From the IMG/VR virus record IMGVR_UViG_3300017971_002684, positions 1 through 53,606 of that record: a stretch of 53,606 nt of DNA, one strand, 5' to 3'. A program made the translations under genes and the position numbers. Numbering within the stretch: the first letter of the stretch is position 1; every line of letters starts with the position of its first letter. Shown piece by piece: positions 4,135-36,207 of the stretch. The notes under the pieces were generated by a model. That model saw only the letters and a list, made by a program, of their open reading frames with translations. It did no database searches and was not told the origin of the DNA. This DNA comes from a virus.

Positions 4135-7100
4135 ATGTCTGATTTTCTTGGAATGGGCGCCTATGCAGGCCAGACACAGTACACGGTGAGTGACCCGTAC
4201 TATTCTGGTGATCCCGGTGCCTACAATCACGGTCAAATTGCTACAGACCAAGCGCACACCGTCCATTACGGTGACGCCAACCTCCACATGGGCGCTATTG
4301 ACTCAGACCAAGCAAGCGGAACGCTCCTGATTGGTGTGGTCAACGCTGGTGCTATCCAGTTTGGCGGTGGCTCCACAACCCTTGTCTTTGCCGGTGACAT
4401 GACCGTTTCAGGCAACCTGACAGTCCAGGGCTCATCCATCACCTCCCAAGTGGAGGAAGTGGTTGTCTCTGACAATCACTTTTTCATGAACTGGGACTAC
4501 TTGGGGCTTGTGGCGGAAACAGGCGGTATGGTGGTCAACTACCTTGCCACTTCAGACCAGTCCACAGTTGTTGCTATGCCTGCGGAAGTGACGCTCACTG
4601 GAACGGTGTCCGGCACGGTGGGAACTGCGGCGATCACAGGCGTTGGCACAGCATTCACCACAGAGTACACGGTTGGTGACTGGATGGTCATTGACACAGC
4701 CGGTGACGGCAACGGGCGTGAAGCCCACATCATCCAGACCATCACGGACAACACCAACATTGTGCTTGCCTCCAACCTGTACGCCACGCACGCAGGAGAG
4801 ACGCACTCCCGCAACGTGGTCCCCGGTGGTGGGTTCATCCCTGCCGGACTGGACAACGCCTACTGTGCTCTGGACCCTAATGACTCTGAAACCTTCACCT
4901 ACTCCGCCACGGACCTTGTGGCTGTCTCCTACGCCCAGCAGTCCACCAACAACGGCTTGTATGAGGTGTTGAGCCAGACCGTTGTTGAGCTCACGCGCAC
5001 AGGCACGTTGAGCATCACCTCCGGCACGGATGCGATCACAGGCGTTGGTACAGCGTTCACCTCTGAATATCAGGAAGACGGCTGGATTGTCTTGGACGCA
5101 GATGGCGGCGGCAACGGGCGTGAGATTCACCAGATCGCTACCATCACCAATGACACCTCCATGACCCTCTATACCAACGCAACCAACAACCATGCGACAG
5201 AGGATCACTCTGAAATTTCCTCCACCTTGCAGGTCAAGGGTGTTGGGCAGACCTCCACCGTTGAGGACTTCACGGACACTGATTTTGTTGAGGAAGACGG
5301 TGTGGCGCCTGGTGGTATTCCCTTGATCGGACATGTGAATGTGTCCGTCTTGCGGGCAGGCACAGACGGGATTTGGGAGACGGGCATTGGCAACCAGACA
5401 GCCCTGTCTTTTTCCGATCTGGCCTCAGCTACGGGGATCACCCTCAACTCTGTCTACCAAAACAACGGCAACACCGTTCTCTTGGATGACGGCTCTGGCA
5501 CCATTGTCTACCGGGACAACGGGATCACCTCTCTGTACGCCACCCAGTATGAGAACACCGTCAAGGCCACCTTTGGCACGGACAACAATGACGGGCAGAT
5601 CCACTTCACCCCGGCGGGCAGCTTTTACGTTGAAACCCTTGCTCATGACGGGACGCTGGATGAGGGCTCCAAAGACCTGCACGTCCGCACGGGAGTAGTG
5701 ACCAACCCTGGCAGTAGCGCCTCTGGCTCTCTCACCATGAACACGGGTTCTGTAGGGACGGATGGAACGTCTTCCGGCGGCGTGCTCATCTACTCCGGGC
5801 TTTGTGATGGGTCTTCCCAGTCCGGCAATGTGGAAGTGTACTCTGGCAACCAACCCCAAGACAGTGTGGCGGCTTCTGGCTACATCAAACTTTACACAGG
5901 CACCTGTCAGAACGGTGACTCCGGCGTGGCTGAACTGTACTCTGGCAACGTGACGGACGGGGGCGGTTCTGCTGACTCTGGTGACATTTCTGTCTACTCT
6001 GGCACGGTCCAGGGCGGTGAGTCTGGCACGGTTGACATCTACACAGGCAATGCCTCCAACGTAGGCACCTCTGGCGCAATGACCCTGAAGACCGGGACCA
6101 CAACGGTTGGCGGCACCACGGGCAACATTGACATCTACACGGGTGACGGTGTGTCTGGGATCACGGGTAACGTGAGCATCCGCACCGGCTCCGCCTCTGG
6201 TGCAGCCAACACTGGCGATCTGTTCCTCTACACGGGCTCTGGGACCACCCCGGCGGCTGATGGTGACGCCTATCTAGAAGCCTACAACATCTACATTGGC
6301 AAAGCCAACAACCGGCTTGCTGCGGCGCTGAACAGTATTCAGATCGGAAATGACAACGCCACGGCTCCTTCTGTGACCATCTATGGACCGGACAACACTG
6401 CTGCCGCCATCACCATTGCAGAGGGTGGCGGGACCACCTACATGGTCTTTGATACCACGGACGCCAGTGAGCAGATTGAGATTGAGCAGAACACCCGCAT
6501 GGTGGACAACAAGCGGTTCTATGTTGGCACGGATCTTGACGGGTTCTGGTACACGGACAACGCCACCGCCTACTTTGCCACCAAAGCTGTGGACAGCACC
6601 AACTCCATGCCCATCTCTTCCATCACAGGCAACACCACCACCAGTGGCAACTCTGGAGCCTACACGGTTGCATCCGGCAACGCTGCAACGGCTTCTGGCG
6701 CAGTGAGTCTCTATTCTGGGACAGCTTCGGGTGGCCTGAGTGGCGCTGCCACCCTCTACACGGGCACGGGCACCACGGGCACCGGGTTGATCAACATCTA
6801 TTCTGGCAATGCTTCTGCAGGACCCAGTGGTGCGGCAACCCTGGCAACCGGCTCTGGTACAACCGGAACCGGTATCATGACCTTGGGTACAGGTAACGCT
6901 TCTGCTGGGACCAGTGGGGCGGCAGTCCTGTCTTCTGGTGGTGGTACTTCAGGGACCGGTTTGGTATCCCTCAGCTCAGGCAATGCCAGCGCGGGTGGCA
7001 GTGGTACAGCGGCGGTCTACTCCGGCAACGCAACGGGCGGCAACTCCGGTGATGTGAGCATCTACTCCGGGACGGCTGCGGGCAACACCTCTGGGGATGT

Positions 7101-7392
7101 CAACATCACATGCAGCGCAACCGCCACCACGCAGGGTGATGTGAACGTTACTGCCAACTCAGTGATCTATGCCCTTGGGGCAACTTCAGACCAGATCGTC
7201 CTGGACGCCGGCACCAACGGCTTTGTGCTGGAGTGGGAAGATGTATCAGCCAATGACCCCAACACGGACGCCCGCGTGAAGGACGCTGGCTCCATTCTCA
7301 TCTGGCGGAACGACGGCTCACGCGGTGTCTCTGTGTGGGTCAACACGGACGGCACAGGCACCGGCTGGGTCTTGATCGGGAGCCAGTCCTGA
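4135..7392 (+). CDS. Repeat-rich tail fibre protein
   Basis: 1085 residues with AGGAGG before the ATG. Residues about 157-232 and 283-358 are two diverged copies of one module ('ITGVGTAFT(T/S)EY...GDGNGRE(A/I)H'). Residues about 525-705 and 835-995 are long runs of short Gly/Ser/Thr repeats around 'YSGN/YTGT/SGAA', typical of phage fibre shafts made of repeated beta strands. The region between holds a small non-repetitive domain. The C-terminus ends 'IGSQS', as in the previous protein. No enzyme motif is visible. A trimeric fibre with a repeat-built shaft is the likely form. The repeats could allow length change by recombination. Confidence 0.7.
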   Translation: MSDFLGMGAYAGQTQYTVSDPYYSGDPGAYNHGQIATDQAHTVHYGDANLHMGAIDSDQASGTLLIGVVNAGAIQFGGGSTTLVFAGDMTVSGNLTVQGSSITSQVEEVVVSDNHFFMNWDYLGLVAETGGMVVNYLATSDQSTVVAMPAEVTLTGTVSGTVGTAAITGVGTAFTTEYTVGDWMVIDTAGDGNGREAHIIQTITDNTNIVLASNLYATHAGETHSRNVVPGGGFIPAGLDNAYCALDPNDSETFTYSATDLVAVSYAQQSTNNGLYEVLSQTVVELTRTGTLSITSGTDAITGVGTAFTSEYQEDGWIVLDADGGGNGREIHQIATITNDTSMTLYTNATNNHATEDHSEISSTLQVKGVGQTSTVEDFTDTDFVEEDGVAPGGIPLIGHVNVSVLRAGTDGIWETGIGNQTALSFSDLASATGITLNSVYQNNGNTVLLDDGSGTIVYRDNGITSLYATQYENTVKATFGTDNNDGQIHFTPAGSFYVETLAHDGTLDEGSKDLHVRTGVVTNPGSSASGSLTMNTGSVGTDGTSSGGVLIYSGLCDGSSQSGNVEVYSGNQPQDSVAASGYIKLYTGTCQNGDSGVAELYSGNVTDGGGSADSGDISVYSGTVQGGESGTVDIYTGNASNVGTSGAMTLKTGTTTVGGTTGNIDIYTGDGVSGITGNVSIRTGSASGAANTGDLFLYTGSGTTPAADGDAYLEAYNIYIGKANNRLAAALNSIQIGNDNATAPSVTIYGPDNTAAAITIAEGGGTTYMVFDTTDASEQIEIEQNTRMVDNKRFYVGTDLDGFWYTDNATAYFATKAVDSTNSMPISSITGNTTTSGNSGAYTVASGNAATASGAVSLYSGTASGGLSGAATLYTGTGTTGTGLINIYSGNASAGPSGAATLATGSGTTGTGIMTLGTGNASAGTSGAAVLSSGGGTSGTGLVSLSSGNASAGGSGTAAVYSGNATGGNSGDVSIYSGTAAGNTSGDVNITCSATATTQGDVNVTANSVIYALGATSDQIVLDAGTNGFVLEWEDVSANDPNTDARVKDAGSILIWRNDGSRGVSVWVNTDGTGTGWVLIGSQS
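5716..6250 (+). repeat. Degenerate coding repeats, first block
   Basis: Tandem imperfect repeats encoding short Tyr/Ser-Gly units (YSG, YTG, TGS) in the fibre gene. The unit length is irregular (roughly 14-20 codons). They are protein-level repeats with much diverged DNA. Confidence 0.6.
6640..7110 (+). repeat. Coding repeats, second block
   Basis: More regular tandem repeats encoding 'SGNASAG.SGAA' and 'GTTGTG' units in the fibre gene. DNA similarity between units is higher than in the first block, suggesting more recent expansion. Confidence 0.65.
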
Positions 7393-7516: not shown

Positions 7517-7546
7517 TTGCCCTTTGGGCTGTCTTTCCCCTATAAT
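7517..7546 (+). promoter_or_regulatory. Sigma-70-type promoter
   Basis: TTGCCC (7517-7522), an 18-bp spacer and a perfect TATAAT (7541-7546). It follows the hairpin and precedes the gene at 7619, giving a leader of about 65 nt. The leader contains GTTCTGTT at 7561 and a 7-bp hairpin (7574-7580 with 7586-7592). Confidence 0.6.
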
Positions 7547-7618
7547 CAGGCTTGTTTTTAGTTCTGTTGACGTTGGAGGGGCTTGCCCTCCACCCTACCC
7601 GCAAAAGGAAACACACAC

Positions 7619-8245
7619 ATGAGCAAGAAAAAGAAGAAACGCAAAGCAGGACAGCAGGCTCCCCCCTCTCCCCAAGACCAGCGCAAAATGGCGGCAATCA
7701 AGCAAAAAAAGGAGTTCATCAAGGGGCTCATGCAAGCCCAGAGCATGGTGGTCTTCACCCCTGGGCAGAACTTCAGCTTTTTTGGCATTCCCAACGAACG
7801 GCTCCTTGAGTTTTTGCTCCGGGAGGTCTATGGCTGGGACGGGCGCAATGTCATGTTCCAGAAGATTCTTGCCAAGCTGGAGGGACCAGCCCAACCGGCA
7901 CCAGACCCCGCAACCAAGGAGCTGGATGACATGCTGGAGGAGGTGGCTGGGGAGTTGGATGAAGATGATGTTGAGGACGCCACAGGCGGCGCTGAGGATG
8001 ATGAAGAGGACGGAGATGACTCAGGGGATGAAGAGGATGAAGAGGACGCTGAGAGTCCCTCTGAGCCCCCTGCAAAAGTGCTCCCCATTGACCCCAAGCA
8101 AGCCCCCCTACCCAAGCCGGTGAAGCCCGCAGGCAACGGTGACGCCCACCCCTCTCCCCAAGAGGAGATTGCCCGCCTTGAGGCGGCGCTGGCAGAGTAC
8201 AAAAAACAAGCGGCAGAGGGCACGCAAGATCCCGCCGCAGAGTGA
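7619..8245 (+). CDS. Acidic protein of unknown function
   Basis: 208 residues. The ATG at 7619 is preceded by AAAGGA and the protein opens with a Lys tract (MSKKKKKRK). Residues 40-90 form a small folded segment ('FFGIPNERLLEFLLREVYGW'). Residues about 100-160 are an extreme Asp/Glu run, followed by a Pro-rich linker and a short C-terminal helix. The basic head and acidic tail give a strongly dipolar chain. The position at the head of a structural transcription unit would fit a chaperone, scaffold or capsid-associated protein, but no family is recognised. Confidence 0.6.
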   Translation: MSKKKKKRKAGQQAPPSPQDQRKMAAIKQKKEFIKGLMQAQSMVVFTPGQNFSFFGIPNERLLEFLLREVYGWDGRNVMFQKILAKLEGPAQPAPDPATKELDDMLEEVAGELDEDDVEDATGGAEDDEEDGDDSGDEEDEEDAESPSEPPAKVLPIDPKQAPLPKPVKPAGNGDAHPSPQEEIARLEAALAEYKKQAAEGTQDPAAE

Positions 8246-8253
8246 GATGACTC

Positions 8254-10086
8254 ATGGCGTTTGTCTTCAAAAACTACTCCCTCACGTTCCCTGGGGCGGG
8301 CGTTGCCACCCCTTTGGACATCACGGTCCATGTGCAAGCCACAGACCGCTACACGGCTCTGAGAGGCGTTGCCCAGTCCGTGGTGGTCCAGATCGCCACC
8401 CCCCAGCTTCTTTTGCTCCCACTGGACTATGACGGCTTTGTGGTGGAGCGTTCTGATGACGGTGGGATCAACTGGTCCCAGGTGTCCGGCGTGGTGCGTG
8501 ACTCCTTCTTTTGGGTGGACGCGCCCGCGCCCGTGGGCACGCTGCGCTACCGCGCCCGGATGCGCGTTGCCGTGGGCACGCTGTCTTCTCCCGGCTCAGA
8601 GGTGGAAGTGGTGGTCAACCAGTGGGGAGACGCAGATGAGATGGGGCTGTCAGAGGTGGACGTTGCCAACGGCAACATCTTGACCCGGCTCCCCAGGGCA
8701 AACGCCTTTCCCGTAGGCTTTGACGGAGAGCCCCACACGGGCATGAGCGTGGCAGAAGGGTCTATGGCTGGGGGGCATGGGGAAGGTGCCTGGTACGTCC
8801 GTTCCAGGGAGTTTGAGCCCCCGCGTGTGTACGGGCACGCCCCCGCCTGTGGCACGCCAGCCGTACCCCTGCCGCTCACGGTCATCACCCTCAAGTTGCA
8901 AGACCTGCCTTACCCCACCGGGGGCTCCGGGATAGATGACACCCAGACGGTCATCTGGCTGGGCGTCACCTCCCAGTCCGGCGGCGCTCTGCTAAAGGTG
9001 CGGGACGGAGCCACCCAACCCAACGCCCCCACCATCACCTGCGCCGTGGTGCCTGGAGTGGACCCCCTGCTGGATAGGGATGTGACCATCACCGTTCCAG
9101 CCGGGTACATCAACCCCCTGGACACCGTGACGGTCAAGGTCTTTGTGGTTGACCTGGATGGCAACGTGACCACGGACCTCTGTGAGTTTGTGATGGAGTA
9201 CAGGGATGATGTCCCGCCGGTCATCAGTGATGAAGACCCGGAGTGCGGCACGGGCGTAGACGCCTCTGACAGCCGCAGGGTGCGCCGGGACACCTCCTTC
9301 TCCTTTGAGGTCACAGACCCGGACACAGGCGTTGACACAAGCACGCTGGACGTGTTCTATGGTCCCTCCTCCTCTGGACCCTGGACCCAGGTGCTCAACA
9401 ACGGCACAACGTGGCTGGGGGGCTTCACGGGCTCCATCATCCCCATCACAGATGGCTATGAGGTGACGGTCAACCGCCCGGTGGCGGACCCCCTCTGGCC
9501 TGCGGACAGCGTGGTCTGCTTCCTGATTCAGGTGGATGACAACCAGGGGAACAGCGCGGAGAAGACCTGTTGCTTCCGCACAGAGGACGTGATCCGCATC
9601 ACCCGGATCGTCCCCATAGCAGAGGACATTCTCTTTGTAGAGTTCAACGTCCCCCTCTCCAACGATCACCCCCTACGCAACGCCCAGAACTATGCCATCA
9701 GCCCCCTGGAGGCGGCGGACCCCGTGACGGTCAAAGAGGTCTTGCCCCATCAGTTTGAAGAGGCTGCGGACCCGGAAAACCCCTTCACGCGCTTGGGCGC
9801 GGGCGATCCGGCGTTCATCTACCTGCACACCACCCCGCAGACCCCGTGGGCAACCTACCAACTCAGCATCACCCCCAACGAGCTACAAGATCGCTACGGG
9901 TTGGATGTGCCCGCCCTGTCAGGGGATTTCCGTGCCAAACGCACCAAAGTTGATGAGCACCGGGACACCCACAACCAGCCCCTTGCCCGTGATGACTCTT
10001 CCCACCGGCGGCTCTTGATCGGGATAGCCCACGCGGATGAGGTGATCGGGGGCAACTTCATCTCAGATGATTTTGAGGAAGAGTGA
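8254..10086 (+). CDS. Ig/FN3-like domain virion protein
   Basis: 610 residues, eight bases after the previous stop. Residues about 10-120 look like a fibronectin-III-type module ('FVVERSDDGGINWSQV', 'LRYRARM'). Further beta-sandwich modules follow at roughly 205-320 and 325-450, and a bacterial Ig-like segment with a 'YAISPLEAADPVTV' start at 465-560. A short polar tail ends 'DDFEEE'. Such strings of Ig-like modules are usual in phage tail-tip, baseplate and decoration proteins, where they bind cell-surface glycans. No catalytic motif is seen. The assignment to the virion rests on domain style and neighbours. Confidence 0.6.
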   Translation: MAFVFKNYSLTFPGAGVATPLDITVHVQATDRYTALRGVAQSVVVQIATPQLLLLPLDYDGFVVERSDDGGINWSQVSGVVRDSFFWVDAPAPVGTLRYRARMRVAVGTLSSPGSEVEVVVNQWGDADEMGLSEVDVANGNILTRLPRANAFPVGFDGEPHTGMSVAEGSMAGGHGEGAWYVRSREFEPPRVYGHAPACGTPAVPLPLTVITLKLQDLPYPTGGSGIDDTQTVIWLGVTSQSGGALLKVRDGATQPNAPTITCAVVPGVDPLLDRDVTITVPAGYINPLDTVTVKVFVVDLDGNVTTDLCEFVMEYRDDVPPVISDEDPECGTGVDASDSRRVRRDTSFSFEVTDPDTGVDTSTLDVFYGPSSSGPWTQVLNNGTTWLGGFTGSIIPITDGYEVTVNRPVADPLWPADSVVCFLIQVDDNQGNSAEKTCCFRTEDVIRITRIVPIAEDILFVEFNVPLSNDHPLRNAQNYAISPLEAADPVTVKEVLPHQFEEAADPENPFTRLGAGDPAFIYLHTTPQTPWATYQLSITPNELQDRYGLDVPALSGDFRAKRTKVDEHRDTHNQPLARDDSSHRRLLIGIAHADEVIGGNFISDDFEEE

Positions 10087-10089
10087 TTT

Positions 10090-10104
10090 TATTAGCTTCT
10101 AATA
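10090..10104 (+). promoter_or_regulatory. Dyad TATTAG-CTT-CTAATA before the bacterioferritin gene
   Basis: A perfect dyad between the stop at 10086 and the GAGGAG ribosome binding site at 10105. It has no A-box upstream. The start codon follows 14 nt after the dyad. Confidence 0.7.
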
Positions 10105-10118
10105 GAGGAGAAAGACCC

Positions 10119-10646
10119 ATGCCCTCCTATGTGATTCTCAAAGCCCGCAACATGCCCCAGAGGCTCCAGAAAGCCCTCACGGGGCTCATCCATGATGAAT
10201 TCCATGCCCTGACTACCTACGCCCATCAGGCGTCCATCATGGAGGGCTACGGGCACCAGCGCCTTGCCCAAAAATTCCAGGAAGAGGTCCGGGAGGAACT
10301 GCACCACGCCATGCTCCTGATGGACCGGCTCAACCTCTTTGCCTCCCCGCCCAACCTCAACAAGCCCAAGCCCGTCAAGACCCTCATCTCCCCCAAGGCC
10401 ATGCTCCAACACCAGCTTGAACTGGAAGAGGAAGCCATTGCCAGCTACAACAAAGCCGTTGCCCTTGCCCGCTCCCTGGAAGACAACGCCACCAAGGATC
10501 TGCTCACCGCCATCCTACAGGATGAGGAGCACCACTATGACTGGCTGTCCGCCCAACTGGACCGTATTGCCCAGATGGGCTTGGAGAACTACCTCTCCCA
10601 CATGGGACAGCCCCACATCACCGTTGAGGTGGAAGAGGAAGACTGA
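10119..10646 (+). CDS. bfr: Bacterioferritin (ferritin-like diiron protein), heme Met replaced
   Basis: 175 residues of a four-helix ferritin-like protein; the C-terminal 'DEEHHYDWL..QL' and 'QMGLENYL' closely match bacterial bacterioferritin. All six diiron ligands are in place: E27, E60, H63, E103, E136 and H139. The axial heme ligand (Met52 in E. coli) is Leu61 here, so heme binding at the usual dimer interface is doubtful. Bacterioferritins oxidise Fe(II) and store iron in a 24-subunit shell. The ATG at 10119 has GAGGAG upstream, and the stop overlaps the start of the next gene (TGATG), coupling it to a structural protein. Host iron management, oxidative protection or incorporation in the particle are all possible; the context favours late expression. 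Confidence 0.9.
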   Translation: MPSYVILKARNMPQRLQKALTGLIHDEFHALTTYAHQASIMEGYGHQRLAQKFQEEVREELHHAMLLMDRLNLFASPPNLNKPKPVKTLISPKAMLQHQLELEEEAIASYNKAVALARSLEDNATKDLLTAILQDEEHHYDWLSAQLDRIAQMGLENYLSHMGQPHITVEVEEED

Positions 10647-13228
10647 TGCCCCTGGACATTGCCAACGTCCCCAACCCCCTGTTCACCTACAACCAACGCT
10701 CCGCCCTGGAGGCGCTCCGGCGCATGTTCCTATTGAGATGGTCCACCGGGAAGTACCTGACAGCCAACGCTGGCAACTATGGGCTCTCACGCCCTCCCCT
10801 GGGCTTTTCTGATGATGACATCTTCCGCGCCTGCGCCCAGGTCATCATGGCGCACCACAAGAACATCCTGGACCCCATCCGCCTCCTCTGTGAAATCATC
10901 CTGGGACCGGCTGAAGACCTCTGGTTCCAACTTGCCCAAAATGAGAACGCTGGCAGACCCTTCCTCCACCTCAAGCCCTACGGGCACTACTTCACCTACT
11001 CCAATCTGGTAGGCGGACCCCCCAACCCCGGAGAGCGCCTCTCCGCCACACACCCCAAAACTGGCACGGTTTTTGACATCCTTGCCGTCCACCTGGACAC
11101 CGCCCGCTCCCGCCTCTGGTTCAACTTCATCCGCTCCAAGCCCGCAGACCAACTCCTGGAGCCAGGGCTCTCCTTCACCGGAAACCAAACCGGCGTCTCA
11201 CTCAAGAACGCCTCAGAGGTCTTCCAGCGTGACCTGGACGCCCTTCCCATCTATGCTATGTTTACCCTCTACAACCCCAAACCGGCGGACCCCCTGGACC
11301 CCTCCCTGGATGCGCTGCGGGAGGACGGAATTTTCATTTCCCCTGATGCTACAAGGGGTTACGCCAGATTGAGTCAGCCCCTCACCTCCGCGCACGCCCA
11401 AGATGACCTGCTCTACATCAAAGGCGGATGCTGGGAACTGTACGCCCCAAAAGCCCGCAGCTTCTACATCAAGGTCACTTGCCCAGAACTGTACCCGTCA
11501 CAACTCCCCGGCAACTCCTACCTGCACGCTAACCCCTGGATTGCCTCTGAGACACAACGCCCCCTTGCACCGGGAGACACAAACGTCTACATCCAAAACC
11601 TTTTCACTCTCAACACGGATTTGCTAACCTTCCCAAGAATCCTTTTTATCGATCCGGATTTTGAAGCCAAAAACACACTTTCCGGGTCAAGGTTTTTGAC
11701 GGTGACAGCGTTCAATCCAACGTCACGGGTCTTCACCCTGTCTCTCCCCATCCCGGCAGGCGTCCACTATCCCAGAGGGACCAAGGTGAAGTGGCTCCAG
11801 CACTTGACAGGGCAGACCAGTGGCGTGACCTCTCCAGGGGCTCAGGTGATCGTGGCACGGCTGAATGAACCTCATCCAGAGGGTGTGTGGGTGGTGGACC
11901 CAGGGGGGGGTAGTGAGGAGAAAGTTTTTGTGGTGGGGAGTTCTTATCAGGTGCGGCGGCTGGTGGCACCGTTGGTGAGTGGTTCCAGTGTAGTGGTGGA
12001 GGTGGACAGACCGTTTGAGGATGTGGACCTGAGCCAGACCACCCACTTGGAGGTGTTGGACACCTTGGGGACTGGTGGCTTGGTACAGATTCAGAGCATC
12101 AGTGGGAGGTTCATCACGTTGACAGGGGTGGTGGGGTTCAGCATAGACACCACCACGGTCCTTGCATCCGTGGGGTTGGTGGACAGTGCGGGAGCCAGTC
12201 TCTTGACGCTGGACCCGGCAACTCCGGTGCAGGGGTTGCACGGGGGGGCAACGGCACTGGCGTACTTCTTGGGGTTGGCGGGAGGCTTGGAGCCAACGTG
12301 GGCGGACCATTTACCTGTGGCTGGGTATCCGCCCGCTACGCCGGACGGGCGGCACCCTGGACCGTACTTGTTTGAGCCCAGCCGTGACGCTGCGTACAAT
12401 GAACAGGGGAGTGGGTTGGTGCGTGCGGAGTTGGACACCACGGACCTGAATGACGGGCGGCTCTACATGGCGCGGACGCAGCTTGCGGAGCGCCTGGACC
12501 CGCAGACAGCGCCGATCTTGTTCACCGTGACGGTGGGTGGGATCAAGCATGAGATACGGGCGATCCGTGTGGTGGATGCGTCCTTGTTGCCCAGTCAGGT
12601 CATCATGAACGCTTGGAAGGTTCACCCGGACAACCCGGACCCTGGCCTGCCTATCCGTGTGGTGGTGGCGGCAGAGGGGCAATTTGGGCGCACTCCTGTC
12701 TACTACTGGGGTAAGGGGTTCAGTGTCTCTGGGACGGAGAATCTGGTCTATTTGAGCGGCGTGCAGCGCATCCACTTGGCGGGGACGGAGGTGGCAACGT
12801 ACCACACGCACCTGCCCATCAAGGCGGTGAGCCCAGCCAGCAACCCGTGGGGCGCGGACCCTGGCTTTGACACTGGGGAGGGGCAGGTTTTGGTGGACCA
12901 CGGCTTTTCTGTAGAGGAGACGGTGGAGTATGACAAGCTGAACAAGGTGAGCAACACGCAGGCCACCCTGGAGTTTGAGCGTGGCTTTGTCCCGCAGCAT
13001 GGGCATGACCCGTTCAAGGTGAGCAACCTGGAGCCCCTGATTGCCTTGGGGGTTCCGATAGTCCGGGGGGACCAGCAGGCCATCCCCAGGGTGGATGGGT
13101 TCTCTTTCCCGTTCTACTTGGGCGGCAACGCTGCCTATTTCCGTCTGCGCTTTGTGATGGATTTGGTGCGTGCTGCGGGAGTGGAGGTGACGTTGCTGGA
13201 TGACAAAGACCGTGTGATCCCCGTGTAG
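10646..13228 (+). CDS. Large virion structural protein
   Basis: 860 residues starting at the ATG that overlaps the bacterioferritin stop. Residues 1-120 are helical and Leu/Arg-rich, the rest mostly beta. No known catalytic motif was found. Near base 11700 the coding strand changes from strongly C-rich to strongly G-rich within the gene while the frame stays open, so the two halves may have different origins. The place in the cluster argues for a tail or baseplate protein. Confidence 0.55.
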   Translation: MPLDIANVPNPLFTYNQRSALEALRRMFLLRWSTGKYLTANAGNYGLSRPPLGFSDDDIFRACAQVIMAHHKNILDPIRLLCEIILGPAEDLWFQLAQNENAGRPFLHLKPYGHYFTYSNLVGGPPNPGERLSATHPKTGTVFDILAVHLDTARSRLWFNFIRSKPADQLLEPGLSFTGNQTGVSLKNASEVFQRDLDALPIYAMFTLYNPKPADPLDPSLDALREDGIFISPDATRGYARLSQPLTSAHAQDDLLYIKGGCWELYAPKARSFYIKVTCPELYPSQLPGNSYLHANPWIASETQRPLAPGDTNVYIQNLFTLNTDLLTFPRILFIDPDFEAKNTLSGSRFLTVTAFNPTSRVFTLSLPIPAGVHYPRGTKVKWLQHLTGQTSGVTSPGAQVIVARLNEPHPEGVWVVDPGGGSEEKVFVVGSSYQVRRLVAPLVSGSSVVVEVDRPFEDVDLSQTTHLEVLDTLGTGGLVQIQSISGRFITLTGVVGFSIDTTTVLASVGLVDSAGASLLTLDPATPVQGLHGGATALAYFLGLAGGLEPTWADHLPVAGYPPATPDGRHPGPYLFEPSRDAAYNEQGSGLVRAELDTTDLNDGRLYMARTQLAERLDPQTAPILFTVTVGGIKHEIRAIRVVDASLLPSQVIMNAWKVHPDNPDPGLPIRVVVAAEGQFGRTPVYYWGKGFSVSGTENLVYLSGVQRIHLAGTEVATYHTHLPIKAVSPASNPWGADPGFDTGEGQVLVDHGFSVEETVEYDKLNKVSNTQATLEFERGFVPQHGHDPFKVSNLEPLIALGVPIVRGDQQAIPRVDGFSFPFYLGGNAAYFRLRFVMDLVRAAGVEVTLLDDKDRVIPV

Positions 13229-13724: not shown

Positions 13725-14177
13725 ATGACACCCCAAGAGGCTGAAGCCAAGAGGTTTTTCTACCGTGGCAGAGTGCGCTCTGTCTATGATGGTGACACAG
13801 TACGCATGGACATTGACCTGGGCATGGGGGTGTGGGTCCAGAACCACAGCATCCGCCTGTGGGGGATAGACACCCCAGAGATACGGACCAAAGACCCAGA
13901 GGAGAAGAGGAGGGGCTACAACGCCCGTGATGCGCTCCGGGAGATGGTGCTGGGGGAGAAGGTCTACATTGAGACGTTCAAGGACAAGAGCGGCAAGTAT
14001 GGGCGTCTGCTGGGGGTCATTTGGGCAGACCTGGAGCCAACGCAGGAGCAGGGCTCCGGCGGGCTCCTCAACGTCAACCTGCAACTGGTGTTGTCTGGTC
14101 TGGCAGAGCCCACAGAAAAGCGTTACATTGAGGCAAAGAAAGCCCACATTGAAGTAGAGAAGGGGTTGCAGGCATGA
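13725..14177 (+). CDS. Thermonuclease (SNase-like) nuclease
   Basis: 150 residues with the SNase fold signature. 'DGDT' at 22-25 and 'RLWGIDTPE' at 44-52 supply R44, D49, T50 and E52, and 'KYGRLL' supplies R94. These match the five catalytic and Ca2+-binding residues of staphylococcal nuclease (R35, D40, T41, E43, R87). There is no signal peptide, so it acts inside the cell. Such enzymes cut DNA and RNA with little sequence specificity. Its stop overlaps the start of the cytosine methyltransferase (ATGA), so the two are co-translated. Degradation of host DNA while phage DNA is modified is a reasonable inference. Confidence 0.9.
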   Translation: MTPQEAEAKRFFYRGRVRSVYDGDTVRMDIDLGMGVWVQNHSIRLWGIDTPEIRTKDPEEKRRGYNARDALREMVLGEKVYIETFKDKSGKYGRLLGVIWADLEPTQEQGSGGLLNVNLQLVLSGLAEPTEKRYIEAKKAHIEVEKGLQA

Positions 14178-15517
14178 GGTACTTCTCAGGCTGTTCAGGG
14201 ATTGGCAGTGAGCATGTGGCATGGGACCGGCTGGGGTGGGAGTGCGCCGGGTTCTGTGAGATAGAGGAGTTTCCCTCAGCCGTGCTTGCTCACCACTATC
14301 CCAACGTCAAGAACTATGGTGATTTTACGGAGTTGACAGATGAGCAAATCCAGGGACTCAGATCCGCCGGTCCAGTTGACCTTCTTGTTGGGGGCACCCC
14401 CTGCCAAAGTTTCTCAGTTGCCGGACACAGAAGAGGACTGGATGACTACCGTGGCTCACTGGCGCTCAGATTTGTTGAGCTTGCGGATCGCCTTGGAGTC
14501 CGTTGGATTGTCTGGGAAAACGTCCCAGGAGTGCTCAGTGTTGATGAGGGACAGGCTTTTGGAGCCGTCCTTGGGAAAATGGTTCAGCGCGGGTATGGGT
14601 TCACCTACAGAGTTCTGGACGCACAGCATTTTGGAGTGCCCCAAAGACGCAGAAGAGTCTTTGTTGTCGGACATTCTGGAGGAGACTGGAGAGCATCTGC
14701 TGCGGTACTGTTTGAGTCCCAAGGCTTGCCAGGGGATACTGCGGCGGGCGGAAAAGAGGGGGCGCATCCTGCCCCCTCCGTTGGAGGCGGCTCTGAAAAT
14801 GGTGGCGGAGAGAGAGGAGGAGTGATGTCCTTTGACACCACCCAGATCACCTCTCCTGGCAACTATTCCCAGCCAGACTATGGCAAGCCCTGTCATTCAC
14901 TGGCTTCTGGAGCGCACGTCCCGTCTGTGGCTATGGCGCTGACAGCAAATGACAATGGGCGGGACGCCACAGAGAACACCTGCCCCACGGTGCGGGTTGG
15001 AGCCCAGCCTGCCGTGGTCCCAGACAAATCCTATGCCATGAATGCCAAGAGTTTCTACCAAAACCCCACGGTGGAAACCTACATCCCTTTCAATGAGCAA
15101 GCTGGCACGCTGGGCGGAGCCTCCCAAAGCGGGGGCTTCCGTACCACGGACCTGGACAACTCTGGGGCGTTTGTGCAGGCGTTTGCCATGCGCGGGCGGG
15201 ACGGGGAGAACATGCCAGAGGTGCATGGGGACGGGCAGACCACCTCTCCGGTGCGGACAGAAGGTGGGAGTGGGCGGGACTATGTGGGCTTGTTGAATCA
15301 AATCCGGCGGCTGACACCGCTTGAGTGTGAGCGGCTCCAGGGCTTGCCGGACAACCACACCAGGGTTCCATTCAAGGGCAAGGACGCCTCAATGTGTCCA
15401 GACACCCCCCGCTACAAGGCGGTGGGGAATGGCTTTGCTGTGCCCGTTGTGCGGTGGCTGGGTGAGCGCATCCAGATGTTTGAGCGGCTGGTGGCGCAGG
15501 GCAAGATCCGGCGGTGA
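14174..15517 (+). CDS. DNA (cytosine-5) methyltransferase
   Basis: 447 residues with the ordered motifs of C5 methyltransferases: I 'FSGCSGIGS' (4-12), IV 'GGTPCQSFS' with the catalytic C77, VI 'ENVPG' (E115), VIII 'QRRRRVF', and near the end 'LTPLECERLQGLPD' and motif X 'AVGNGFAVPV'. The target recognition region is the stretch of about 215-360. It transfers a methyl group from SAM to C5 of cytosine in a short site; the site cannot be read from the sequence. It overlaps the nuclease gene by 4 bases. An ORF of 161 codons lies inside it in another frame, and an internal in-frame ATG at 14825 follows that ORF's stop with its own GGAGGAG. Confidence 0.93.
   Translation: MRYFSGCSGIGSEHVAWDRLGWECAGFCEIEEFPSAVLAHHYPNVKNYGDFTELTDEQIQGLRSAGPVDLLVGGTPCQSFSVAGHRRGLDDYRGSLALRFVELADRLGVRWIVWENVPGVLSVDEGQAFGAVLGKMVQRGYGFTYRVLDAQHFGVPQRRRRVFVVGHSGGDWRASAAVLFESQGLPGDTAAGGKEGAHPAPSVGGGSENGGGERGGVMSFDTTQITSPGNYSQPDYGKPCHSLASGAHVPSVAMALTANDNGRDATENTCPTVRVGAQPAVVPDKSYAMNAKSFYQNPTVETYIPFNEQAGTLGGASQSGGFRTTDLDNSGAFVQAFAMRGRDGENMPEVHGDGQTTSPVRTEGGSGRDYVGLLNQIRRLTPLECERLQGLPDNHTRVPFKGKDASMCPDTPRYKAVGNGFAVPVVRWLGERIQMFERLVAQGKIRR
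14340..14825 (+). CDS. Out-of-frame ORF nested in the methyltransferase gene
   Basis: 161 codons in the +1 frame relative to the methyltransferase. The ATG has GGAG 7 nt upstream and the stop (TGATG) overlaps an internal in-frame methyltransferase ATG. The product ends with a 'YCLSPKACQGILRRAEKRG' segment and 'LPPPLEAALKMVAE'. From memory, similar small proteins with 'LSxxACxGILRRAxKRG' are often predicted beside or within phage C5 methyltransferase genes. That recurrence could mean a real overlapping gene or only a by-product of conserved methyltransferase codons. No function is known to me. Confidence 0.45.
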   Translation: MSKSRDSDPPVQLTFLLGAPPAKVSQLPDTEEDWMTTVAHWRSDLLSLRIALESVGLSGKTSQECSVLMRDRLLEPSLGKWFSAGMGSPTEFWTHSILECPKDAEESLLSDILEETGEHLLRYCLSPKACQGILRRAEKRGRILPPPLEAALKMVAEREEE

Positions 15518-15530
15518 TTAGAAACTAATA
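15516..15530 (+). promoter_or_regulatory. Dyad GATTAG-AAA-CTAATA next to a ribosome binding site
   Basis: The dyad overlaps the methyltransferase stop codon, with its first base changed to G. It is followed immediately by GGAGGAGG (15531-15538) and the ATG at 15540. A promoter -10 here would leave almost no leader, so this copy argues for an operator or RNA-level role. Confidence 0.6.
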
Positions 15531-15539
15531 GGAGGAGGC

Positions 15540-17075
15540 ATGGCACCCGGAACAACGGAGCCCAAGGCAACGCTCCATCTTGGTGATTGCATTGAAGTTT
15601 TGAGTGGGTTGCCCCCAGAGTGTGTGCAGGCGTGCGTCACGGACCCGCCGGCAGGCATTTCCTTCATGGAGCGGGACTGGGATGATGACAAAGGGGGAAG
15701 GGATGAGTGGATTGAATGGCTCACAAAGGTCATGCGGGAGGTCTACCGCGTGCTGGTGCCTGGAGCCCATGCCCTGGTGTGGGCTCTCCCGCGCACAAGC
15801 CACTGGACCGGCATGGCGCTGGAGAACGCAGGCTTTGAGATTAGGGACCGCATCAGCCACATCTTTGGGCAGGGCTTCCCCAAAAACCACAACGTGAGCA
15901 AGGCGCTGGACAGGATCGCCGGGGCAGAGCGTGAGGTGGTGGGGGTTGTGGCAGGAATGGGGAAACAGAACCCGGAGTGGAACGGAACGGCAGCAGGGCG
16001 GGCGGAAAACTACTTCAAGCCGGAGTATGAAGCCACAGCCCCAGCTACCCCAGAGGCAGAGCAATGGGACGGCTGGGGCACGGCGCTCAAGCCCAGCACA
16101 GAAGACTGGTGGCTTGCCCGCAAGCCCTTCAAGGGCAGCGTGGCTTCCAATGTGCTGGAGTGGGGGACCGGAGCCATCAACATTGATGGGTGTAGGATTT
16201 CACTACAGGGGCAACCATCCCCATCCGCAGAGCGCCGCAAGAGCACCCCCCTCATCAACTACAAAGACGGTGGGCGCTGGCCTGTCCGTACCAGCCCAGA
16301 AACCTTCTCCCAGGAGCGTCCCTCTGAGCAGTTGGGGCGCTGGCCTGCTCATTTCATTTTGAGCCATCACCCAGAGTGCAAGCAAGTAGGAGAAGATGAC
16401 TGGGACTGCCACCCAGATTGCCCGGTGAGGCAGCTTGGGGAGCAGACACAGGGGCAGAGATGTCAAAACCCCTCAAGGACTGGTACAGCTTTTTCCCATG
16501 ATGGTCTGTTCATGCCAGGGCAACCAGACAGGCAACCTCTCCAGCATGATGATGGTGGTGGTGCTTCCCGGTTCTTTTTGAACCTGCCCCCTGTGGACCC
16601 GGACCCTTTCTACTACTGCCCCAAGGCAAATCCAAAGGAGAAGGAGTTGGGCTGTGATGACCGGGATGAGGCGATCTGCAACGACGGGCGCAAAACCAGC
16701 ATAGACAACCCCTACCAGCGTGGTGACACCATGCGGAAAAACGTCCATCCCACCGTCAAGCCCCTGAAGTTGATGCGGTATTTGTGCAGGCTCATCACGC
16801 CCCCTGGAGGCACCGTGTTGGACCCTTTCATGGGATCTGGGAGCACAGGCATGGGGGCGCTCCAGGAGGGCTTCAGCTTCCTTGGGATTGAGCAACAAGA
16901 GGAGTTCTTGGACATTGCCCGCAAGCGGATTGCTTGGGCTCTTGAACAGGCTCCTTTTGAGGAGAAAGAGCGGACCTTGCAGGTGGTCACACAGGATGAA
17001 GACGGGCAGGAGCAGGCAGAGGTGGAGGTCAAAGAAGACCGGCGCCCTGCACAGCAGTTGTCTTTTTTCAAGTGA
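15540..17075 (+). CDS. Beta-class DNA methyltransferase (N6-adenine or N4-cytosine)
   Basis: 511 residues. Motif IV is near the N-terminus as DPPA (35-38) within 'TDPPAGISFMERDWD', a variant of DPPY found in many phage methylases. The SAM-binding motif 'LDPFMGSGST' follows near residues 427-436, with 'HPTVKPLKLMRYL' before it. This motif order (IV, recognition region, I) defines the beta class. The ~390-residue middle is the recognition domain and carries several CxxC-like pairs. The target base and site are not determinable here. It lies between the cytosine methyltransferase and the tailspike and would add a second modification to the phage DNA. The start follows GGAGGAGG. Confidence 0.88.
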   Translation: MAPGTTEPKATLHLGDCIEVLSGLPPECVQACVTDPPAGISFMERDWDDDKGGRDEWIEWLTKVMREVYRVLVPGAHALVWALPRTSHWTGMALENAGFEIRDRISHIFGQGFPKNHNVSKALDRIAGAEREVVGVVAGMGKQNPEWNGTAAGRAENYFKPEYEATAPATPEAEQWDGWGTALKPSTEDWWLARKPFKGSVASNVLEWGTGAINIDGCRISLQGQPSPSAERRKSTPLINYKDGGRWPVRTSPETFSQERPSEQLGRWPAHFILSHHPECKQVGEDDWDCHPDCPVRQLGEQTQGQRCQNPSRTGTAFSHDGLFMPGQPDRQPLQHDDGGGASRFFLNLPPVDPDPFYYCPKANPKEKELGCDDRDEAICNDGRKTSIDNPYQRGDTMRKNVHPTVKPLKLMRYLCRLITPPGGTVLDPFMGSGSTGMGALQEGFSFLGIEQQEEFLDIARKRIAWALEQAPFEEKERTLQVVTQDEDGQEQAEVEVKEDRRPAQQLSFFK

Positions 17076-17146: not shown

Positions 17147-20100
17147 ATGGCAAAAAGACCCAACTATGTGCCCACAGAGCGGGTGGACCTGGATGATTTT
17201 CTCTACTCTGTGGCAGACTATCCCTTCAACTTGCAGTCAGACATGAACCGTGCTGTCCTGGGAGCCGGCGTCCTGGAGGGCTTCCGCGTGCGCGTTCTGG
17301 AGCAGTCCGGCGCAAACAAGGGGCGCATTGAGATATCCAACGGGCGTGCCCTGGACTGGGGCGGGCGGTTCCTCAATGCAGAGACAGGGACCATTGCAGA
17401 GCAGGTGGTGCTGTCAGGAGTGGAACAAGAGTTCTGGGTTGAAGTGGAAATCCTGTTCATTGACGCGGACAAGGACGCACGCGCCCTGTGGGATGCGCTG
17501 ATTGACAACACGGCTCCCCTGCCAGACGGGCAAGAGGTGAGCGTCCCGCGTGTGCCAACGCGCAAGATCCCCACCTGGAGGATCAAGCAACCCATCCGCT
17601 CCAACCCGGCAGACAAGAGAACGGAGTCAGGCTACAACCCGGTGGGGTTCTCCCCTTCCACAGAGCATCTGGTCCGGGTGGCTTGCATCCGTACCAACTC
17701 AAGCGGTCACATTGTCTTTGGCTCCCCAGATGATGATGAGTTTGGGAATGCCATTGTGACGCGGGCAACGGCTGAGGGTTCCTCCCGCAAGTTCATCCAG
17801 GCACCTGGGCTGGGGGAGCCCACCCAGCAGGACACCAGCGGCTTTGATCTGGTCTATGGCTACAAGCATTCAGACCAGCGCAACATGTTTTTCTCCCCCC
17901 TCCTGCCGCCCGGACCTTTGGGCTTTTCTCCCCCTGGAGACATTGCAGGCTCCATCTACAACGGCATGTGGATGAGGGACATGGGGTCTTGCCTGGACCA
18001 CTTGATGACCCAGATCGGGCAGATCAAGGACGGGGCTGGACCCACGGATTTTGGGCAGTACCATGATGGACTGGTCCAGGAGTTTGGACCCAACCTGGAG
18101 TACCTCACGCTCAAAGAGGTCTATGACAACTCTTCCTCTGGCTCCCCCTTCAATGTGGACCCAGACCAGTTCATTGGATGCACCATTCAGGTCACTAGCG
18201 GGCACTGGGCGGGCTTCTATGCAGAGATACAGAACAATGAGCGCACAGCCCTTGACGGCACCACAAAGCTGTGGCTGGGGCGCAAGAGCGGCATTCCTGA
18301 GTGGAGGGATGGCATAGCTGGCAACCCAACATGTAGGGTGGTCCAGCACAAGCAAAAGAACTGGCTGGCGCCGCCCACGCCGGACTCTGCCAACCGGGGG
18401 CTCAACGCCCTGGACACTGAGGTTGTGGGAGCCCGCACAGACTACTGGTCCAACATAGGTTTCACCTACCTACGCAACCGGCTGGATGCAGGGAAGCTGG
18501 CAACCTTGACTGTAGCGCCGGAGGACACCCCCGATCTGACAACGGGTGATCCTTCCACCGCAGGCCACCCCAGGGCGGACGTGTTCTATGACAATGCTAA
18601 CATCAGAGCCACCGTCAAGGCGGTGGCAGAGGACAAGGGAGGGCGCATCCACTTCAGGCAGGGAACCTATGACTTTGTGGACCAGGAGCCTGCCACAACT
18701 GTTTTTGAGCTCTCTGGGGCAGAGGGTGTCATCTTTGAAGGGGAGGGACCAGACAAGACCATCCTCAAGTACATCAACACTTCCAGCCCAGTGGAAACCC
18801 GGACCATCTTCAGTTTGGCAAACTGCCAGGACATCATCTTTAAGGACATGAAGTTTCATTCCACTGGCACGCCATTCCAGATGACCGGATGCAGCAGGAT
18901 CTTTTTCATCAACTGTGAGTTTGAGGGGGATTTTGTGGACGCTGACACCCCCGTTGTGGACCTGGGGAGCGCCCTGTTTTGCCTCTTTGACTCCTGCCGG
19001 TTCTATGTGGTTGGGGAGGGCTTGAGTGCCTCCTCTTTTGGTGCCAGCATGATGCGCTACTGCCGCTTTTTCCAGCGCACGGCTTTGTCTACCCAACTCA
19101 AGTACGCTGTGGATCTTGGCAAGGTGGAGTTTTCCCATGTGGAGCACAACTACTTCAGCGGGTACTCCTCAGAGGCAGGAGTGCAGTGTGAGAACTTCAC
19201 CTCTTCCCACTTCAACAACAACATCTTTGCCAGCACAGTGGCAAGCGGTGGTGACGGGCAGTTCTATGTTTGGAGCAGGGTGGAGTATTCCTTGATCGTC
19301 AACAACACCATGCGGAATGACTCCTCTGTGGCAGACAACCAGACCTTTGCCGCCATGAAGCTGAACCGGGTAGTCTACAGCAAGGTGGAGGGGCTCATCA
19401 TCACAGGGGTCAAAGGGGGTGTTTCTATCACTGACAGCTTCACCTATTCCTATATGGGCAACATCCGGGCGGCGCTGACACCGGACGCTCTGGGGATCAC
19501 TGTGGGCGGGACGTTTGAGAACAGCGTGATAGACAGGTGCTATCTGCGCCATGACGGTGGAACTTCTGCAAGGGGGATCTACCTGACAGGCAGAGTCTAC
19601 AACGGCTTTGTGGTGGGCAATGATATCCGTGGGTCCGCCAGCATTGGCAACGCCATTGAAATAGCTTCCAATGATGTGAACAACGCAGTCATCAAGGGCA
19701 ACATCATAGACACTGTGAATGGTGGGATCTACATCAACGGAGCCACCAGTGGCACGTCCCTGTTCATCCATGACAATCTGGTCCGCAACTCCAGTGTGGC
19801 GGCGTTTTATTTCAAGTTCAACACGTTCATGGAGCATGTGTCCATTGTAGGCAACAAGGCTCCAGGAGTGTCCAACCTTGGAATGGCATTTGATGTGACG
19901 GGCACAAACCTTGGGCAGTTCCTCATCAGTGGCAACACCATTGTTGCCACGGGCAGGGCGCTGGAGGTTCTGTCCACCAGTGGTGGCTACATGATTTACA
20001 GTCAGATCACCAACAACCTGTTCTCCTCTGCCAACTACAGTCCTGTGGCTATTGGAACTACTGCCACCAGTGCCGTGCCCACCTCCACAGGTGCCCCAGG

Positions 20101-20803
20101 CACCTCTTTTGAATTCCAGTCATCTCTTTTCAAACACAACATCTGTCATGCTTCTGGTTCAACCCTGGGGAACCTCTGGTTTGCGTACCTGGACAAGGCT
20201 GTGGTGGACAACAACTTGGTGGTGGGGAACCAAGTGACCCGCTCTTTGCAGGTTGTTGAGTACCTTCAAGACTCTTCCATCAGCCTCAACATGGTGCAGG
20301 CATGGACCAATCCTGCAAGCGGGATCTACCTGGAAACCAAATCAGACGGGAAAGTGCGGCTCATTGGCAACCATGTGATGGTAGAGCGGACGGGCGCGTC
20401 TGGTATCAAGGGGATCTATCTCTATGGGACTGCCACGGCGGGCGGTCATGTGGTAGCCAACAACCAGTGCTTTGGTCCAGGCCAGTCAGAGACGGGCTCC
20501 CGTGGTTTTGACCTTGCCAACATCCAAAGCAGTACCATTGTTGGGAACTATGAAGAGGACTTCCAGTCTGGCTACCATTGCCGTGACGCTGACAACTGTA
20601 TGGTGTCTGGCAACATGGCAAAGAACAATGATGACACTGTGGGCTACTATGTGTTTACAGACGCCACCCGTTGCCGTGGCGGCAGCTTGATCACAGGAGT
20701 CAGCGGTGTGCCGGCGGCTCCCACGGGCTTCTTTGGTGATCCGGGTCCGGGAGCCGGTGACGCCCGGAACAGCATCAGTCCATACAACATGTGGGCAACA
20801 TGA
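17147..20803 (+). CDS. Beta-helix tailspike protein
   Basis: 1218 residues. The N-terminal ~180 residues ('NYVPTERVDLDDFLYSVAD') resemble a virion-attachment domain. From about 480 to 1160 the chain has the short, repetitive N-rich and V/I-rich turns of a right-handed parallel beta-helix ('VIKGNIID', 'FVVGNDIRG', 'SLFIHDNLVRNSS'), as in pectate-lyase-like phage tailspikes. Such spikes bind and often cleave surface polysaccharide; the active site cannot be picked out. There is no signal peptide. The gene is followed by a strong hairpin and is preceded by GGGGTGAT. A trimeric depolymerase or adhesin is the likely role. Confidence 0.8.
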   Translation: MAKRPNYVPTERVDLDDFLYSVADYPFNLQSDMNRAVLGAGVLEGFRVRVLEQSGANKGRIEISNGRALDWGGRFLNAETGTIAEQVVLSGVEQEFWVEVEILFIDADKDARALWDALIDNTAPLPDGQEVSVPRVPTRKIPTWRIKQPIRSNPADKRTESGYNPVGFSPSTEHLVRVACIRTNSSGHIVFGSPDDDEFGNAIVTRATAEGSSRKFIQAPGLGEPTQQDTSGFDLVYGYKHSDQRNMFFSPLLPPGPLGFSPPGDIAGSIYNGMWMRDMGSCLDHLMTQIGQIKDGAGPTDFGQYHDGLVQEFGPNLEYLTLKEVYDNSSSGSPFNVDPDQFIGCTIQVTSGHWAGFYAEIQNNERTALDGTTKLWLGRKSGIPEWRDGIAGNPTCRVVQHKQKNWLAPPTPDSANRGLNALDTEVVGARTDYWSNIGFTYLRNRLDAGKLATLTVAPEDTPDLTTGDPSTAGHPRADVFYDNANIRATVKAVAEDKGGRIHFRQGTYDFVDQEPATTVFELSGAEGVIFEGEGPDKTILKYINTSSPVETRTIFSLANCQDIIFKDMKFHSTGTPFQMTGCSRIFFINCEFEGDFVDADTPVVDLGSALFCLFDSCRFYVVGEGLSASSFGASMMRYCRFFQRTALSTQLKYAVDLGKVEFSHVEHNYFSGYSSEAGVQCENFTSSHFNNNIFASTVASGGDGQFYVWSRVEYSLIVNNTMRNDSSVADNQTFAAMKLNRVVYSKVEGLIITGVKGGVSITDSFTYSYMGNIRAALTPDALGITVGGTFENSVIDRCYLRHDGGTSARGIYLTGRVYNGFVVGNDIRGSASIGNAIEIASNDVNNAVIKGNIIDTVNGGIYINGATSGTSLFIHDNLVRNSSVAAFYFKFNTFMEHVSIVGNKAPGVSNLGMAFDVTGTNLGQFLISGNTIVATGRALEVLSTSGGYMIYSQITNNLFSSANYSPVAIGTTATSAVPTSTGAPGTSFEFQSSLFKHNICHASGSTLGNLWFAYLDKAVVDNNLVVGNQVTRSLQVVEYLQDSSISLNMVQAWTNPASGIYLETKSDGKVRLIGNHVMVERTGASGIKGIYLYGTATAGGHVVANNQCFGPGQSETGSRGFDLANIQSSTIVGNYEEDFQSGYHCRDADNCMVSGNMAKNNDDTVGYYVFTDATRCRGGSLITGVSGVPAAPTGFFGDPGPGAGDARNSISPYNMWAT

Positions 20804-21613: not shown

Positions 21614-22192
21614 ATGAGTGCAAAACTTGGAGGAAAAGCTGGGGACGGGCTCCCCCAGATTGGCGGAAAATCAGGAAAAACAACAATCCCCAGAGCGGCG
21701 CCACCGCCCGTGAAGATGACAGACAAGACCCGTCCTGCCACAGTGGACCCAGCCCAGCTTGTGAACATTGATGACATTCCGGCTCTGTTCAAGACCATTG
21801 AGCGCATGATGCGGGGGTTGCGTGACCTCAACGCAGAGATGTTGCTGAGGATGGGCTCTGGGGAAGAGGTGTGGCTGGTGCCAGCGTACACACAGGAGCC
21901 AGGGGAGGACGGGCGCAAGGAAATTTCTTTTGAGGATGCTGCCAAGATCACGGTGCTCTGTGCATCCTTTGGTGGGACAGTGGAGTCCTTGCGCTTTCTG
22001 AGCCCAGAGGAGCGTGTGACGCCCCCAGAGGAGCCAGAGCAGGATGATGACGCCTCCCCGCCTCCACCGCCCCTTCCTGGAGCCTCTGCGTCCTCTGTGA
22101 AGGTTTCTGTGGAGTGTGCAGACCCGGAAGACCCCCCAAAAGACGGACCAGAGAAGGTGGACACCAAGAACCAGGGATCGCTTTTTAGCTGA
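21614..22192 (+). CDS. Protein of unknown function
   Basis: 192 residues. The ATG at 21614 is chosen over an upstream GTG because AGGAGGTG lies 5 nt before it. The N-terminal ~45 residues are flexible (Gly/Lys/Pro). Residues about 50-130 form the folded part ('NIDDIPALFKTIERMMRGLRDLN', 'ISFEDAAKITVLCASFGG'). The tail is Pro- and Asp-rich (a PPPPP run) and probably disordered. No known motif was found. It shares the transcription direction and element type with the following tagged protein. Confidence 0.6.
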   Translation: MSAKLGGKAGDGLPQIGGKSGKTTIPRAAPPPVKMTDKTRPATVDPAQLVNIDDIPALFKTIERMMRGLRDLNAEMLLRMGSGEEVWLVPAYTQEPGEDGRKEISFEDAAKITVLCASFGGTVESLRFLSPEERVTPPEEPEQDDDASPPPPPLPGASASSVKVSVECADPEDPPKDGPEKVDTKNQGSLFS

Positions 22193-22200
22193 GTCCTCTG

Positions 22201-22233
22201 AAAAATTGCCTTTGTTCGTATTAGGTTCTAATA
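22201..22233 (+). promoter_or_regulatory. Composite element: AAAAATT-N11-TATTAG-GTT-CTAATA
   Basis: A full copy with CTG before the A-box and a perfect dyad. The ATG of the next gene is 23 nt after the dyad. Confidence 0.8.
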
Positions 22234-22256
22234 GGCAAGGTAAAACGGAGGTGAAA

Positions 22257-35762: not shown

Positions 35763-36155
35763 ATGACCACCAACGTCAACAACAATCCCCAGCCCCAAGA
35801 CGCCCCCGTTGCCGTGATGAAAGACTCCCAGCTCAACAAGCTGGCTGGCCTGCTCATGGGCTACTACAACGGCAAACCTGGAACCATTGAGATTGTGATG
35901 GATACCTGTGGCAAGTGGCCTGCCACCCGCTACTATGAGGATGTCAACCGGGTCATTAAGGCTGAGGACGCCTCCTACTTCCTGCCCCTCCTGGAGCAGA
36001 TCGGCGTCACCAACACCCAGGGTTCCCCTGTTGGACCCAAGCTGGAGCGTGCTGCCCGGTTGGTGGGGCTCCACATCAACATCCGCTACAGTGACACCAC
36101 AGGCCAGGATGAAATCCGCCTTTCCCATGACCCTGATCAATTCATTGAAGAGTGA
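35763..36155 (+). CDS. Small protein of unknown function
   Basis: 130 residues from the ATG after TAGGAG (an upstream GTG at 35727 overlaps the promoter-like element). The N-terminus is Asn/Pro-rich; the core contains 'YYNGKPGTIEIVMDTCGKWPATRYYEDVNRV'-type alpha/beta elements. No family is recognised. The stop overlaps the next A-box. Confidence 0.55.
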   Translation: MTTNVNNNPQPQDAPVAVMKDSQLNKLAGLLMGYYNGKPGTIEIVMDTCGKWPATRYYEDVNRVIKAEDASYFLPLLEQIGVTNTQGSPVGPKLERAARLVGLHINIRYSDTTGQDEIRLSHDPDQFIEE

Positions 36156-36187: not shown

Positions 36188-36207
36188 GAGAAAGGAGGTG
36201 GCTTGTC

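Follow-up and report, generated by a model that had tools for sequence, protein, structure and literature searches.

A phage bacterioferritin with an intact diiron site and a lost heme pocket, and ferritin genes in or beside phage head cassettes

Why would a phage carry a bacterioferritin (Bfr) that retains its ferroxidase site and has lost its heme ligand, and is such a protein made together with the virion? These questions are raised by a gene at 10119-10646 (plus strand) of an IMG/VR virus record, a fragment of 53,606 bases that is called the window here. The first-pass annotation had read the gene as a phage bacterioferritin, and comparison with Pfam, PDB and TIGR00754 places it in the Bfr family. 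The 175-aa product has five predicted helices, matches Pfam Ferritin (PF00210, 2.1e-26), and shows ~31-36% identity to solved bacterioferritins in PDB (E down to 1.4e-20). The AlphaFold2 model, built from a 24-row alignment, has a pLDDT of 89.5; its best structural match is P. aeruginosa BfrB (Z 24.7, rmsd 1.0 Å over 153 residues), and E. coli Bfr variants and hetero-Bfr chains rank close behind. Pfam and the predicted model agree on the ferritin four-helix fold with a short fifth helix. The fold, the length, the six diiron ligands and Tyr25 are shared with E. coli Bfr and P. aeruginosa BfrB (TIGR00754, PF00210). The window protein differs from them in lacking Met52, in the change of all heme-pocket positions (19, 22, 23, 49 and 52) and of the Bfd-contact positions 68, 81 and 85, and in a 9-residue N-terminal and an acidic C-terminal extension; it scores 77 bits against the NCBIfam TIGR00754 equivalog, below the cut-off of 125.55. 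There is no second Bfr match in the window.

The gene is real and belongs to the phage, because it has a Shine-Dalgarno site, codon periodicity and phage-like codon usage. The motif GAGGAG lies at 10105-10110 (plus strand), 8 nt 5' of the ATG, and GC by codon position is 0.66/0.31/0.78, a normal periodicity. Measured against the remainder of the phage, its codon usage scores 0.205, the highest of the window genes compared, with 0.203 for the 610-aa neighbor. This neighbor ends 32 bases before the bfr start, both neighbors are codirectional with bfr, and the bfr stop and the start of an 860-aa ORF share one nucleotide at 10646 (TGATG), as the overlap had been annotated.

Residues were mapped by ungapped alignment to solved Bfrs with an offset of 9. 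Glu27, Glu60, His63, Glu103, Glu136 and His139 correspond to E. coli E18, E51, H54, E94, E127 and H130, and the diiron ligands are therefore 6/6, in agreement with the earlier reading. Their codons, placed by the alignment on the plus strand, are at 10197-10199 (Glu27), 10296-10307 (Glu60-Leu61-His62-His63), 10425-10427 (Glu103) and 10524-10535 (Glu136 and His139). Leu61 occupies the position of the axial heme ligand Met52, also as annotated, and the loss extends to the whole conserved heme pocket, with none of five residues kept. The five positions scored are those which we take, from the E. coli Bfr structure, to form the pocket; each is at least 85% conserved in cells.

Relatives were searched for in IMG/VR. 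The single-protein scan returned no relative of the window Bfr, and no close relative came from it or from the two profile scans that followed; the second profile scan yielded three further phage Bfr-family genes (L192, L193 and L194). The matches L009-L011 of the first profile scan were rejected as host bfr genes beside prophages. Phage-record matches that are Salmonella and Acinetobacter chromosome pieces, and not phage bfr, were set aside in the same way, as were an actinobacterial-looking fragment taken as host DNA and the match in Pseudomonas phage Y5, whose stretch resembles the uvrA-bfrA region of P. aeruginosa. In OQ572407.1 (L002) and MT835709.1 (L003), two records labeled "phage", a host bfr gene appears to lie within bacterial chromosome DNA. 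A scan of sampled Pseudomonadota and Actinomycetota genomes, run without a positive control, gave no prophage copies at strict cut-offs.

The cellular comparison set consists of 157 different relatives from Acidobacteriota, Myxococcota, Pseudomonadota and others, chosen by nearness to the phage proteins; the nearest cellular Bfr found has at most ~40% identity to the window protein. Met52 is present in 156 of the 157, and the sole exception is the heme-free subunit of a tandem bacterial pair (L198). Among the four phage Bfrs, three lack Met52 and have Leu, Arg or Ile there, L192 being the one that retains it (Fisher p 2e-5 with 155 of the 157 cellular sequences, the sequences not being independent). 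Since nearly all cellular relatives keep Met52, the loss of the heme ligand is derived, and the closest bacterial relatives do not share it.

The loss is directed at the pocket. The number of pocket residues kept out of five is 0 in the window protein, 2 in L192, 0 in L194 and 0 in L193; L192 keeps Met52, yet has lost positions 19, 23 and 49. Summed over the four phage Bfrs, which are not independent as L192 and L194 are sisters (100/99), diiron ligands are kept at 24/24, other conserved positions at 97/144, and pocket positions at 2/20. Random sets of equally conserved positions would give about 12 of 20, and 0 of 20,000 draws were as low as 2. The tandem pair served as positive control: in the same alignment, L198 has 2/5 pocket residues and 6/6 diiron ligands, the pattern of a heme-less ferroxidase subunit, and its partner L198_2 has 5/5 and 2/6, that of a heme subunit. 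The pair shows the known hetero-Bfr split, a sign that the test picks up the intended signal. The tree neither establishes nor rules out a single clade of phage Bfrs (AU p 0.207).

Hetero-Bfrs divide labor between a heme-free ferroxidase subunit and a heme subunit (PMC12120770, PMC6529640). The window protein has the two marks of the heme-free subunit (Shewanella SoBfr1, Magnetospirillum Bfr1, L198), an intact ferroxidase site and the replacement of Met52, and the laboratory heme-free Bfr variant, M52L, carries the same change (PMC6529640). It differs in that its gene is phage-borne and no partner heme subunit is encoded in the window, which is a fragment. In the tree, the window Bfr stands apart from the L198 branch, L198 being the only bacterial heme-free subunit included and the branches being long.

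The other phages show where such genes are placed. The bfr of L192 starts at the very next base behind the portal gene; 3 bases beyond its end comes a prohead protease gene (Peptidase_S78, 6e-41), and then a major capsid gene. L194 has the portal gene, a small gene and then bfr, which overlaps the protease gene, and in L193 the major capsid gene starts 2.1 kb downstream of bfr. Of 49 viral contigs that have a related RecA and were searched, one more, G300, has a non-heme ferritin gene of the phrog_16594 type, unrelated to the Bfrs, one base 5' of the head maturation protease gene between the portal and capsid genes; this gene (L189 16388-16879, G300:56388-56879) comes after a NUDIX-domain protein and the portal region. 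L196 and L197 (10001-10489) also encode phrog_16594-type non-heme ferritins, and that of L197, a relative of the G300 ferritin, is flanked by two giant genes. Because the searches selected on protein similarity and took no account of position, they did not create the clustering of these genes in or beside head cassettes, although the number is small. In the relatives with ferritin genes so placed, virion-linked expression is likely. Separately, Foldseek with the Bfr model matched three long uncultured Caudovirales proteins named "prohead protease" (A0A6J7XDU5, A0A6J7WPK9 and A0A6J7WIS1) with probability 1.00 and rmsd 11-15 Å; these may be fusions of a ferritin with a protease, or helical parts of a scaffold may have matched by chance.

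For the window, the flanking genes had been called a virion gene and a structural gene, a claim that the searches do not confirm. The upstream 610-aa gene (8254-10086, plus strand) is without a Pfam or PHROGs match or a credible PDB match, the downstream 860-aa gene (10646-13228, plus strand) is matchless, and phage-record sequences gave no convincing match for either. No homologues of the 610-, 847- and 860-aa neighbors were found in phage records, and single-sequence prediction of the 610-aa protein gave a pLDDT of 33 and no usable fold. No head genes were recognized on the window fragment; a protein with a tail-fiber PHROG match is encoded at 4135-7392, and the genes downstream serve phage replication and recombination, among them a DnaB-like helicase, primase, processivity factor, SSB, UvsX/RecA, SbcC/SbcD and a CobS/CobT-like pair. 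Promoter and terminator scans of the window reached chance level only: a sigma70-like site (10/12) at 7517-7546 (plus strand), 5' of the gene run 7583-13228, is not above chance, with 2 such sites found and 1.3 expected. The annotated late expression with virion parts is plausible because of the tight codirectional spacing (32 bp and -1 bp) and the Bfr/ferritin genes in or beside other phages' head cassettes, but the virion role assigned to the neighbors is not supported by the searches. A "structural operon" is plausible for the window, as is virion-linked expression of its bfr.

Several other features of the window were recorded. The 1218-aa protein encoded at 17147-20803 has a NosD-like beta-helix match and is perhaps a tail spike. 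At 13725-17075, a C5-type cytosine methyltransferase and an adjacent second DNA methyltransferase were recognized by eye beside a nuclease-like gene (13725-14177). A phrog_249-type AAA ATPase and a CobT-like VWA protein form a pair at 36854-39786; such pairs are common in phages and their function is unsettled. The otherwise dissimilar products of 22116-23048, 35908-36792 and 49325-50113 have near-identical ends, RLREKMKKKRKESEW, RLRRKMKKKQRASEW and RLKEKMAKKRKESEW, a shared C-terminal tag. The contig L138/L187 (IMGVR_UViG_3300017963_002275, 17,591 bases) comes from the same or a near-identical phage, with a RecA and helicase segment 100% identical, and it contains no ferritin match.

The reading preferred here, given about an even chance, is that the window product forms a ferroxidase cage without heme, which is made along with virion proteins and acts as a one-way sink for iron. 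The product would be a heme-free Bfr-type subunit, its fold known from prediction and its ferroxidase site from sequence. Because both are kept, Fe(II) would be oxidized and then mineralized in a 24-subunit cage. The normal iron release route from Bfr requires heme and Bfd (PMC4771812). Stored iron probably could not exit by this electron route, since the window product lacks the heme pocket and its record has no gene for a Bfd-type ferredoxin; none was found in five other phage records either. Heme-free reductive iron release is possible in non-heme ferritins. In E. coli, heme-free Bfr is reported to store more iron (cited in PMC6529640). Judging from the gene spacing and the head cassettes of other phages, bfr would be translated along with its neighbors as part of one gene run, probably late. 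The cage may thus remove free Fe(II) from the infected cell during assembly and before lysis, and less free Fe(II) would limit peroxide/Fenton damage to DNA and particles while DNA is packaged.

The phage subunit could instead co-assemble with a heme-binding Bfr of the host, giving a hetero-Bfr with more ferroxidase sites or locking the host iron store; mixed dimers would be unable to hold heme because Met52 is required from both sides. Such co-assembly accords with the residue pattern of the hetero-Bfr heme-free subunit, with the lack of a partner gene in the window, and with the joint cages formed by co-expressed homo- and hetero-Bfr subunits (PMC12120770). It is nevertheless unlikely, given that hetero-Bfr dimers are homodimers (PMC12120770) and that the window protein is so far from any cellular Bfr found and is not grouped with the bacterial heme-free L198. 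Slightly more doubtful is that bfr is a common auxiliary gene taken from the host, either a passenger or a general oxidative-stress gene, that has no special virion link and whose pocket decayed by drift. Stress or iron genes of this kind are known from phages, namely Dps, ferritin and a single published bfr (PMC8008677, PMC10904782, PMC6669764), and the AU value for one clade allows separate acquisitions of the four phage Bfrs; however, general drift is disfavored because the diiron site is kept throughout while the pocket is lost, and the placement in or beside head cassettes recurs. That the locus is host DNA or an assembly chimera is hardly credible: several "phage" database matches are bacterial DNA and host bfr genes at prophage edges exist, but here the codon usage is phage-like, tightly spaced phage ORFs lie on either side, phage replication genes follow downstream, and there is no close host gene.

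Two further readings place the protein in the particle. A ferritin cage might be packed inside the capsid or particle, the viral counterpart of ferritin-like cargo in HK97-fold encapsulins. It would fit the placement of Bfr/ferritin genes in four other phages, with portal and prohead protease on either side or with the major capsid gene a short way downstream, the three Foldseek matches, and host Bfr peptides in CsCl-purified AXL1 virions (PMC9206674), although the last are possibly contamination and the high rmsd over long proteins does not establish a fusion. Encapsulin iron compartments (EncFtn, EncB, IMEF and, in a few cases, Bfr cargo; PMC8346489) share with related phage loci a ferritin-like gene beside an HK97-type capsid gene. 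They differ in that no shell gene is recognized among the window genes scanned, the window Bfr C-terminus (ITVEVEEED) is by eye without a GSL-type targeting motif, and the relatives' profile scores are far below the cut-off; with no recognized head genes in the window, virion cargo is rather improbable. The same low weight goes to a broader proposal, that tailed phages repeatedly recruited ferritins into capsid cassettes and stripped the heme site, the cage being assembled with or inside the HK97-fold head as a viral encapsulin-ferritin counterpart that shields packaged DNA from iron or brings iron into the cell on infection. The first-pass annotation had found a link to particle iron attractive, given known ideas that phage tails carry iron to exploit siderophore receptors. 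In this Trojan-horse (Ferrojan) reading, the protein would provide the tail with iron or bear it there. The tail-fiber match near by would suit it, but the predicted fold is a cage subunit without a tail domain, the published proposal is based on HxH motifs in fibers (PMC11705849), and the relatives adjoin head and not tail genes, which makes this reading highly improbable. Storage or detoxification, annotated as equally possible, is the better supported of the two.

Phage bacterioferritin as such is already known, since phage ferritins and a viral bfr have been published: Dps and manganese catalase of phages (PMC8008677), ferritin as one of the stress genes of freshwater phages (PMC6802176), a "bacterioferritin" in Flandersviridae (PMC11780533) and the bfr of a putative Bathyarchaeia virus, which is under purifying selection (PMC10904782). 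The latter is, like the window gene, a viral ferritin-superfamily gene with a proposed iron/ROS role. The same holds for the Dps of Gratiaviridae, Lactobacillus and Streptomyces phages and the phrog_16594 non-heme ferritins, but these belong to other families. The published phage and viral ferritin work, as far as it was consulted, does not discuss the heme-pocket state or head-cassette placement, and no report of either for phage Bfr was found in a literature search that covered few subscription journals. The finding matters in these two respects, the directional loss of the heme pocket and the recurrent placement in head cassettes. The heme-less versions in or beside other phages' capsid-gene clusters suggest that phages have put ferritins to a new use, as one-way traps for iron that are produced while particles assemble, and the loss of the pocket with full retention of the ferroxidase site suggests that what the phage gains is iron uptake without return. 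If the protein is made with heads or packed into them, phage assembly would be linked with iron and with oxidative damage, and encapsulin iron compartments would have a counterpart among viruses.
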